The notes under the pieces were generated by a model. It was given only the letters and a program-made list of their open reading frames with translations, did no database searches and had not been told where the DNA came from. A stretch of DNA of 64,000 nucleotides from Pseudobdellovibrionaceae bacterium (GTDB lineage: Bacteria; Bdellovibrionota; Bdellovibrionia; Bdellovibrionales; UBA1609). The stretch's first letter is position 1; each line of letters begins with the position of its first letter. Positions 20,900 through 27,789 of the stretch are shown in pieces. The stretch is taken from positions 124,001 through 188,000 of the forward strand of contig CANEZP010000006.1 of assembly GCA_947444305.1 (NCBI GenBank), given 5' to 3'. The translations under genes were made by a program, and so were the position numbers.

Positions 20900-20976
20900 G
20901 CGCTCGTAGCTCAGTTGGATAGAGTACTTGACTACGAATCAAGTGGTCGGAGGTTCAAATCCTTCCGGGCGCGCCA
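20900..20976 (+). tRNA. tRNA-Arg(ACG)
   Basis: GCGCTCGTAGCTCAGTTGGATAGAGTACTTGA-CTACGAA-TCAAGTGGTCGGAGGTTCAAATCCTTCCGGGCGCGCCA. Confidence 0.95.
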
Positions 20977-21100
20977 ACTTTACTTTAAATTCCTAAAAAA
21001 AATTGATCTTCGAATATTAGCTGAAATGACTTCCGGAAAAGCCCGGAAGGATTTGAAGCGAGGGCGCAGGCGCGCCAACTTTCCATCGAATTCCGACGAC

Positions 21101-25628: not shown

Positions 25629-25704
25629 TCAGGCGTAGCTCAGTTGGTAGAGCAAGCGGCTGTTAACCGCTTTGTCGGGGGTTCGAGTCCCTCCGCCTGA
25701 GCCA
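25629..25704 (+). tRNA. tRNA-Asn(GTT)
   Basis: TCAGGCGTAGCTCAGTTGGTAGAGCAAGCGGCTGTTAACCGCTTTGTCGGGGGTTCGAGTCCCTCCGCCTGAGCCA. Confidence 0.95.
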
Positions 25705-25917
25705 GTCTCTACCAAAAAAGAAAATCCCCAAACTAACAAAATCAACTTAACGAGAAGATCTCCGCCAGGCGGAGGAACTCGAAGGAAAAACGCGTACCCA
25801 CGATGAATCCGACCAACGGGAGGATTTAGCGTGGGGCGTTCAGGCCTGGATGGCCTGACGAGCGTTTTTGCCGACAGCATGCACGGACACACTCCCGCTG
25901 GGGACAAGCGGCCGGAC
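25699..25917 (+). repeat. Copy A of ~220-bp imperfect direct repeat, starting at tRNA-Asn 3' end
   Basis: gagccagtctctacca...cccacgatgaatccgaccaacgggaggatttagcg...ggcgttcaggcctggatggcctgacgagcgtttttgccgaca... matches 27116-27337. Confidence 0.9.
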
Positions 25918-25925
25918 AAAGTCTT

Positions 25926-26849
25926 TTATTTGCTTTTCGTGATGTCTGACTTAATGGCGTGGTTCAAAACATCCGCTTCGATAAGGTCTAATTCTGTGAG
26001 CGTAAGCGCAGTAACTAAATCCACACCCACATTTGCATTTTCAAAATTAAATTTTCGGTAAGTTTTGTCGCGGGTCCCTAGTTCGGTAGCTTGCATCCCG
26101 ACATACCGGATCTCTCCGTCGTTATTCCTAACCAACAATGGGCTTCCGGATTGACCGGAGCTGGTCGCGCAATCGTTGAAGATGGTATCTACATAGTTTT
26201 CGCCGTGAAGCGACTCGTAGGCGGAACAAGTCAAATGTGCCCAAAGCTGAACCTTTCCGGACTCGTTTTCTTTTATGCCAGGGAAACCCGCGGTTATAAG
26301 CGAAGGATTTTTTAACTTTGAAAACGCTTCATCAAGCATTTTAAGAAAACCGACTTCTGCTCCCAAACAGCCTTTCTCATCTAATTTAACAATGACCCAA
26401 TCGCTTCCAATATGATCAAAATTGGGTCGTTTACGCCAGGTAATCGGTTTCCCAATGACCGTCCTATTCGCGGTAAATTCAATCGAAAAATCTGTTTGAT
26501 TTGGACTTTTGGAAAATCCGAAGACCGAATGATATACGGTCATGACTAAACAAGGTGAGATCAAAAATCCCGTACTCTGCAAAACTTCCGGCGAAAACCC
26601 ACCTTTTCCGTTCGGCCAAGGAACGGGTTGTAGATTTTTAATCATACCAATGGCGGAAAGTTCCTTTATTCCGGTAAGCTTCGTGACCCTTACTAAGGGA
26701 TCTTTCCCGGTCTTACTAAAAGTATTTACTTTATGAATCCGCGTTTCAAACGCGAGCTCTGGATCTAAACCGATGGCGCCTGCGTAAAGATTGATCGACA
26801 AGAGCAAAAACGCGACACCCAGGTAAATTACATTTTCAGAAGCGCGCAT
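25926..26849 (-). CDS. Trypsin-like serine protease, secreted
   Basis: STGFLISPCLVMTVYHSVF (His), GSDWVIVKLDEKG (Asp), NDCATSSGQSGSPLLVRN (Ser). Confidence 0.8.
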   Translation of the reverse strand: MRASENVIYLGVAFLLLSINLYAGAIGLDPELAFETRIHKVNTFSKTGKDPLVRVTKLTGIKELSAIGMIKNLQPVPWPNGKGGFSPEVLQSTGFLISPCLVMTVYHSVFGFSKSPNQTDFSIEFTANRTVIGKPITWRKRPNFDHIGSDWVIVKLDEKGCLGAEVGFLKMLDEAFSKLKNPSLITAGFPGIKENESGKVQLWAHLTCSAYESLHGENYVDTIFNDCATSSGQSGSPLLVRNNDGEIRYVGMQATELGTRDKTYRKFNFENANVGVDLVTALTLTELDLIEADVLNHAIKSDITKSK

Positions 26850-27115
26850 TATTATCCTTTAGCGCCCTATAACGTCACCGAGGCTTGAATCCGATTCGGT
26901 TCCAACGTCCCAATGAGCTTTGACGATCAATTCGTTGAGTCTCATTTATGTAAAGCAACGACAAGGCCAAAAGACCATTCTGCCCGCGGATCTACCTTTT
27001 TTGAGGTATACCTCCTGGAGGAAACTCTAAAATCGATACAGTGGTCTAACCTGAATATTTGATTCTATTGGGGCTTTGGGTAAGTTAAAAATAACAGCCT
27101 TGGTGCCCATTGGAG

Positions 27116-27337
27116 GAGCCAGTCTCTACCAGAAAAAGAAAGTCCACACTTATCACAAATTATCTTAACGAGAAGATCCCACAAGGCGGAGGGACTCGAA
27201 GGAAGAACGCATACCCACGATGAATCCGACCAACGGGAGGATTTAGCGGGGGCGTTCAGGCCTGGATGGCCTGACGAGCGTTTTTGCCGACAGGATGCAC
27301 GGACGCAAGATCTCCGCTGGGAACACGCGGCCCGGCG
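27116..27337 (+). repeat. Copy B of ~220-bp imperfect direct repeat
   Basis: Aligns end to end by eye with 25699-25917, including the leading gagccagtctctacca. Confidence 0.9.
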
Positions 27338-27789
27338 ATTAAGCGCTGAGGAGTATGCGAAAGCGGCCTCCTCTTAAATAAAAAACTGACGCCGCGATCG
27401 CTACTAAGAACCAAGATCAACTTCTGAAAATTTTAAATCCAAAGATCCTCCCGACCAGTGTTCATATACCTACTTTGAACAAATTCTTAAGTTCCGATTC
27501 GTCGTGAGAAATAGAAATTTAGAATCACGCGCAGCACGCTGAACTCATGATCATAATTTTCCCTATCGTGCGTGGTGAATGCAGGCCTGCTCGATATGTT
27601 CACCTCCATTTCACCCATCTCTTCCCCATCGAAAGCCGCTGATCGATCTTCGGGACAACGGGAAGATTTGGTACGAGAACGTGTCCAAATCGCTCTTAAC
27701 CTAGACTGAGCTATGAATGGTCGCTCGATGGCTTTGGCACGGCGCATGCTTTGTTCCTTGGAAACCGTAATAACAAAAGGAAATCGAAA

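Follow-up and report, generated by a model that had tools for sequence, protein, structure and literature searches.

Since the late 1970s, the repeats of 178 bp at the tyrT locus of E. coli have stood alone as a curiosity. They make up RtT RNA (RF00391, tyrT/tyrV), the units of which lie in tandem behind a tRNA gene. In E. coli K-12, an antisense of the T-arm, GGGGAAGGATGAGAA, is found 59 nt behind tRNA-Tyr; it is accompanied by a structured core, and the unit ends in a direct copy of the tRNA from A58 on, its last 19 nt. The Rfam model closes on a stem between this antisense and this copy. The present comparison covers RtT at tRNA-Tyr; in Salmonella, the copy number of the rtT RNA varies, and the repeat is listed as a 175-bp VNTR (PMC2658671). 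Two other systems invite comparison. One is the integron cassette array, in which repeated structured sites (attC) are separated by foreign genes, those of the antitoxin or addiction type included, and which is anchored at attI-intI. The other is the tRNA-targeting integrative element (tyrosine integrase, T-loop class), where the tRNA 3' end is duplicated from the T-loop and the tRNA is restored.

The tRNA-Asn locus

The window, by which we mean the whole stretch of 64,000 nt analysed here from a Pseudobdellovibrionaceae genome (G000), contains a tRNA-Asn gene with two repeat copies behind it and a protease gene between them. The features of the locus are as follows.

25629–25704, + strand: tRNA-Asn(GTT), the anchor gene (ARAGORN; Rfam tRNA, 68.9 bits)
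25705–25765, + strand: linker of copy A (from the sequence; relatives have a hairpin or terminator at the linker)
25766–25783, + strand: antisense arm of copy A, CAGGCGGAGGAACTCGAA, reverse complement of tRNA-Asn 25682–25699 with 1 mismatch (repeat search)
25784–25872, + strand: three-way junction core (P1, P2, P3) of copy A (covariance model R1, 89.3 bits, E 9e-21; covariation)
25873–25911, + strand: second domain (P4 region) of copy A, interrupted by the cargo (comparison with other copies)
25912–27115, no strand: cargo between the two units (43.9% G+C)
25926–26849, − strand: trypsin-like serine protease gene, 307 aa (Pfam PF00089, E 9.8e-6; PF13365, E 3.7e-5)
27116–27121, + strand: GAGCCA, remnant of the duplicated tRNA-Asn 3' end, which opens copy B (from the sequence)
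27122–27183, + strand: linker of copy B (from the sequence)
27184–27200, + strand: antisense arm of copy B, AGGCGGAGGGACTCGAA, 17-nt reverse complement of tRNA-Asn 25682–25698 (repeat search, 100%)
27201–27288, + strand: three-way junction core of copy B (covariance model R1, 80.8 bits, E 2e-18)
27289–27336, + strand: second domain (P4 region) of copy B (comparison with other copies)
27337–27354, + strand: probable decayed direct copy of the tRNA-Asn 3' end, GCGCTGAGGAG against CCGCCTGAGCCAG (by inspection; weak)

A preliminary description of this DNA had reported a collinear repeat of about 220 bp running from the tRNA-Asn 3' end, and the repeat proved real: the copies, from 25699 and 27116, align in four ungapped collinear blocks of 74–97% identity at a spacing of 1416–1418, and a genome search gave 89% identity over 217 bp (E 5e-70). 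Both contain the hairpin TCAGGCC-TGGAT-GGCCTGA that it had pointed out, together with CGAGCGTTTTT and the motif ATGAATCCGACCAACGGGAGGATTTAGCG. That description had overlooked the reverse complement of the tRNA 3' end in both copies, and the presence of the element behind other tRNAs. The sequence copied by the element is the T-loop (TTCGAGT) and 3' strand of tRNA-Asn; the antisense arm of copy A stops exactly at T54, and the duplicated tRNA 3' end survives at this locus only as remnants (27116–27121 and near 27337–27354).

What was said of the DNA between the copies was also borne out. It was described as AT-richer, and in 314 other stretches of 1204 bp taken from the 64 kb the G+C content never falls as low (minimum 44.1%, mean 52.7%); the single protease gene was recovered, with the H/D/S residues seen by inspection; and no integrase lies between the direct repeats, where the trypsin-like ORF is the only one of 80 aa or more, apart from what looks like a spurious tRNA ORF. 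The latter is a 96-aa minus-strand frame at 25629–25919 (GGGTRTPDKAVNSRLLYQLSYA), which crosses tRNA-Asn and the unit. The protease looks like foreign cargo.

A third, decayed element lies behind another tRNA gene of the window.

20900–20976, + strand: tRNA-Arg(ACG), its anchor (ARAGORN)
21041–21057, + strand: antisense arm GCCCGGAAGGATTTGAA to tRNA-Arg(ACG) (12/12 match, unique best among 35 tRNA kinds)
21058–21082, + strand: collapsed core GCGAGGGCGCA, then a direct copy of the tRNA-Arg 3' end, GGCGCGCCAACTTT (sequence comparison)

The explanation offered at first for the tRNA-Asn locus was an att duplication. Its tie to the tRNA 3' end stands, as do the insertion polymorphism (see below) and the foreign-looking cargo; the 220 bp are nevertheless not the att core of one island but two copies of an independent structured element, and the true tRNA duplication comprises the 3' end from C56/R57 onward. 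When the genome was searched with the unit, two further sites came up, behind tRNA-Pro and tRNA-Val; a tRNA-Leu site came from a relative. Covariance model R1 detects 11 copies in this genome, at tRNA genes for Asn, Val, Pro, Arg, Leu, Ala, Met, and Ser. Because these 11 structured copies sit at many tRNAs and are mostly free of cargo, a simple att duplication is rejected as a complete account. Low-GC, foreign DNA between repeats that begin in a tRNA 3' end would suit a single island flanked by attL and attR whose integrase was lost; the cargo-free units behind many other tRNAs, each with an antisense to its own tRNA and a conserved fold, make such an island highly improbable.

Anatomy and distribution of the family

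At the Asn, Pro, Val, and Leu sites, the antisense matches the tRNA directly upstream. Ten of the 38 tRNA genes of the genome have, 60–320 nt downstream, 17–24 nt antisense to their own 3' end; this antisense always terminates exactly at T54 of the T-loop and is mostly followed by a related core. Its minimum is about 12 nt (T54–65), with a range across the family of 10–24 nt and 26 nt in G002, a genome of the same genus; a copy associated with tmRNA has a 12-nt match to the tmRNA T-arm. When T54–65 is scored against 35 tRNA kinds, the best match is the own tRNA for 11/11 elements of the genome (a unique best in 10), and it is best or tied in 9/12 elements of genome G004. Complementarity to the own tRNA is 86–99% at positions 57–62, 75–89% at 63–65, and about 40–45% at 71–75, positions 54–56 being fixed through case selection. 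In three elements of genus g38 (L074, L076, and L084), as in E. coli RtT (L213), the antisense ends in the variant ...GAGAA, not ...TCGAA.

This profile recalls a guide with a T-arm seed beside a scaffold (core and P4), through which a nuclease or transposase would home to tRNA genes. The stretch lies directly 5' of the structured scaffold, its match is 94–99% at most core-side positions and about 40% at the far end, and the insertion boundary adjoins the seed end. It always matches the adjacent gene, however, no nuclease gene is linked to the elements (123 flanking ORFs), and Rfam has no family that scores above its cut-off with them, which leaves a guide-RNA-like element quite unlikely.

The 11 cores of the genome align as a three-way junction, with compensatory changes in 24 of 26 pairs. 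Among 86 distinct sequences, compensatory (double) changes occur in 26/26 pairs, paired cells amount to 89.3% (against 31–40% when slid), and the covariation score reaches 0.745 (compared with 0.245 after shuffling and at most 0.14 after sliding); the counts for the 86 sequences lean toward the model because that alignment was fitted to it, whereas the 11-core alignment was not. G-U cells number 125 and A-C cells 19, an excess which points to an RNA read in the direction of the tRNA or to a folded single strand with that polarity. In most copies, a second hairpin, P4, follows the core. A search of the element cores against Rfam gave no family at its cut-off; sX4 was rejected as an identity (25.8 bits for a cut-off of 70), since the match overlaps tRNA-Ser itself and better matches in the genome lie at class II tRNA loci.

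In complete copies, the tRNA is followed by a hairpin or an intrinsic terminator, and then come the antisense, the three-way junction, and P4; the tRNA 3' end, copied directly, stands last, at times with a second unit after it. The element itself is non-coding, structured, and about 200 bp in size. Among the 79 elements that lie 20–400 nt behind a tRNA or tmRNA, 57 have the direct copy of the 3' end, usually about 44 nt past the junction, and its boundary is nearly fixed, with a start at position 56–58 in 46 of the 57. Tandem units were found at L063, L097, L100, L109, L196, L202, and L203; at L142, L199, L202, L203, and L204, two or three units lie about 200–460 bp apart. In the nearly pristine unit of tRNA-Leu(TAG) in G002, the antisense is perfect over 26 nt and the 3' end is duplicated together with the terminator; this unit folds with a closing stem, P0, of about 20 bp (−115.8 kcal/mol). 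In the type A copies of G000, those of the window included, P0 is impossible because the downstream tRNA copy has decayed, and yet the antisense is intact.

In the units of G002, G029, and G004, the tRNA 3' end, the terminator, and the antisense form one nearly continuous palindrome, and the antisense halts exactly at T54. A snap-back origin would account for both: a pre-tRNA self-primed from the terminator hairpin would be copied back to the T-loop, and the core would be joined by a template switch of a reverse transcriptase or polymerase. G000, however, has 11 copies and no RVT_1 gene, and the presence of a reverse transcriptase shows no association with the element (30/72 positive against 101/297 negative genomes, 369 in all), so such a retro-copy appears very improbable.

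Two other kinds of sequence were seen behind tRNA genes. One is a second non-coding module, unrelated in sequence to the element reported here, with a hairpin and then CTTGCTGCCTCCCC .. TTTGCTATTGTGTTGTTCGCC..GGCGAACTGTTCGCGTGAACGCTCAC; it occurs in the genome of the window (L010 1577–1780, L042, L043, L034, L023, L025, and L041) and behind tRNA-Asn of G029 (L158), and several copies also precede a direct copy of the tRNA 3' end. The other is GGTCCATACCGGAGACATGGGTTACACTTTATACTGGACACATGGGTAACACTT, a repeat resembling the ends of insertion sequences, which follows many tRNA genes of G004 (L166, L170, L173, L177, L178, L183, and L190) and the tmRNA of G240 (L218) at a distance of a few to some tens of nt; several contigs end there.

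With model R2 (E ≤ 1e-5), the element was detected in 72 of the 369 Bdellovibrionota genomes and in 47 of the 182 genera; besides tRNAs, tmRNA is a host gene, and the target tRNAs vary between genomes. A strict pattern applied to the GTDB species collection gave 24 stretches. Two of these, L150 and L152 (labelled Acidobacteria and Deltaproteobacteria), are chance matches with no tRNA and no significant R2 match, and by the strict pattern alone this collection yielded no genuine element outside Bdellovibrionota; viral contigs gave no match to it. Open-licence papers contained no account of such elements in Bdellovibrionota. We conclude that this is a widespread, previously undescribed Bdellovibrionota family of small, folded, RNA-like elements behind tRNA genes.

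A proposed insertion at the T-loop, or a possible trailer RNA

Within the genus of the window, presence is patchy: G000 has many copies, G002 has one, and G001 and G003 have none. The preliminary description had proposed a comparison of relatives at tRNA-Asn, and G003 indeed provides an empty site, with an identical tRNA-Asn and syntenic upstream genes, yet with neither the element nor the protease. Likewise, G000 is without a unit at tRNA-Leu(TAG), the site occupied in G002, and, at the tmRNA locus, the element is present in G230 and absent in G231, synteny being retained up to the tmRNA 3' end.

We tentatively favour, as far from assured, the reading that the repeats are non-autonomous structured elements which a putative recombinase, acting in trans, placed at the T-loop of their tRNA or tmRNA host genes, possibly in an attC-like manner. 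In its favour we count, besides these empty sites, the 11 copies at different tRNAs, the fit of each antisense to its own tRNA, the covarying pairs with their G-U excess, the 3'-end copies with their nearly fixed start, the G002 unit, and, as described below, the grouping of cores by genome and the cargo between units at four loci. The unit runs from the tRNA 3' end (from R57) through the linker hairpin or terminator, the T-arm antisense (from T54), and the three-way junction to the P4 hairpin. Insertion at the T-loop would duplicate the tRNA 3' end, and the tRNA would therefore stay intact. As the closing stem P0, the antisense arm would pair with the tRNA copy downstream and enclose the core, re-creating the T-arm sequence as a double-stranded site on one folded strand, and a putative recombinase acting in trans would join this folded site to a tRNA gene at C56|R57, by a logic like that of attC × attI. 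Tandem units could arise by repeated insertion or by recombination between tRNA copies, and foreign genes, here the trypsin-like protease, could become trapped between units, perhaps as a regular process.

Cores group by genome across different tRNAs (42 label changes against 66 shuffled), in a clustering with many forks unresolved because the columns are few. This grouping implies that copies spread, or were converted, within genomes, with the antisense refitted each time. Gene conversion (concerted evolution) could mimic spread within a genome and counts against insertion, and how the antisense is refitted to each new tRNA is unexplained by insertion. Also counted against it is the lack of a consistently linked recombinase gene: among 123 flanking ORFs, no recombinase, nuclease, or other partner protein was consistently linked to the element, integrases being present in only 3–4 cases and of generic phage type.

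The alternative that the element is a regulatory RNA in the trailer of tRNA and tmRNA genes is possible, if less probable. Co-transcribed with its host, it would pair through the antisense with the upstream T-arm or the downstream copy, and so switch the folding or maturation of the pre-tRNA, or it would act on the tRNA after release; its copies would come from tandem duplication or gene conversion, and the cargo would be incidental. The strand-specific G-U pairs agree with this and, in pointing to RNA, are counted against insertion too, though a folded DNA strand would tolerate G-T too. The conserved complementarity of T54–65, with the acceptor part falling off, is also in keeping with a trailer RNA, and the antisense kept in G000 while the downstream copy decays, where P0 cannot form, again speaks against insertion. 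In genus g38 (mostly near-complete genomes of 3.5–4 Mb), the element is retained at tRNA-Gln and its core diverges by compensatory change; this vertical retention in several genomes, with the structure preserved, argues for a host function and against insertion. The antisense persists at these tRNA-Gln loci even though the downstream copy decays, which also favours a trailer RNA. For the tyrT operon of E. coli, Bosl and Kersten reportedly described an RNA product in 1991, and we count this in favour of a trailer RNA. On the other side, the presence of the element is patchy and polymorphic within genera, a terminator-like hairpin often separates it from the tRNA, and the target tRNAs are not the same between genomes.

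Two of the g38 tRNA-Gln loci, L068 and L071, have nearly identical linkers and P4 and strongly different three-way junctions in which pairing is kept, as if the core had been swapped or were fast-evolving.

Most units are without cargo. Foreign genes lie between copies at four loci (tRNA-Asn and tRNA-Met of G000, tRNA-Trp and C4 of G321) and encode trypsin- and papain-like proteases and antitoxins. At tRNA-Met, they have a remnant of an element on one side and a full element on the other. At tRNA-Trp, two units are followed by genes for a papain-like protease, the BrnA antitoxin, and DUF4160, and then by another unit, 100% identical to the first over 215 bp; further genes past this last unit include a Gp49 and HI1420-type addiction pair. 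At C4, two genes lie between units, with a repeat of 188 bp at 99% identity. Such arrangements resemble cassette arrays. As the cargo junction has CCTGGCCTGCCA, which is the tRNA 3' tail, it is just as possible that the cargo was inserted later, into the tRNA end already duplicated. The element may offer foreign genes a route, unlinked to an integrase, by which to settle behind tRNA genes.

Comparison with integrative elements, integrons, and RtT

Like the tRNA-targeting integrative elements, the new family shows a tRNA 3' end that is repeated from the T-loop onward and a tRNA that is restored; it differs from these in being about 200 bp and non-coding, in having an inverted copy of the T-arm, and in using many tRNAs for one family.

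It recalls integron arrays in part: at four loci, repeated structured sites are separated by foreign genes, and its inverted arms could fold one strand into a double-stranded recombination site, as in attC. Its anchor, however, is a tRNA or tmRNA gene, and the scanned flanks contain no integron integrase. The attC junction is G|TTRRRY, whereas that of the new family is C|RANTCC of the tRNA T-loop; by inspection, the T-loop GTTCRA has C at position 4 and departs there from the attC R box GTTRRRY. Cargo, moreover, is the exception here. A gene-capture system distinct from integrons, with T-loops as attI-like anchors, the element as an attC-like site, cassettes behind tRNA genes, and RtT as a relict of a similar process, seems to us rather unlikely; were it true, proteases and antitoxin or addiction-type cassettes would accumulate behind the tRNA genes of Bdellovibrionota.

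In design, the new family equals RtT. No similarity in sequence or by covariance model was found between RtT and the new family in either direction: RF00391 gives at best 17.2 bits on the genome of the window (E 2.1, not at an element; threshold 45), against 133–138 bits for the E. coli copies. Both nonetheless have tandem units behind a tRNA gene, a T-arm antisense, a direct copy of the 3' end, and a structured core, which in the new family is its own three-way junction; the stem on which the RtT model closes has its counterpart in P0 of the G002 unit. In contrast to RtT, the new family is found at many tRNAs and at tmRNA, with an antisense for each tRNA and cargo between copies. We class it as like RtT in architecture and not as a member of RtT. 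With a phylum-wide family that has the anatomy of RtT, strong covariation, tRNA and tmRNA hosts, and an antisense particular to each tRNA, RtT ceases to be a curiosity and becomes part of a class open to comparison and testing.
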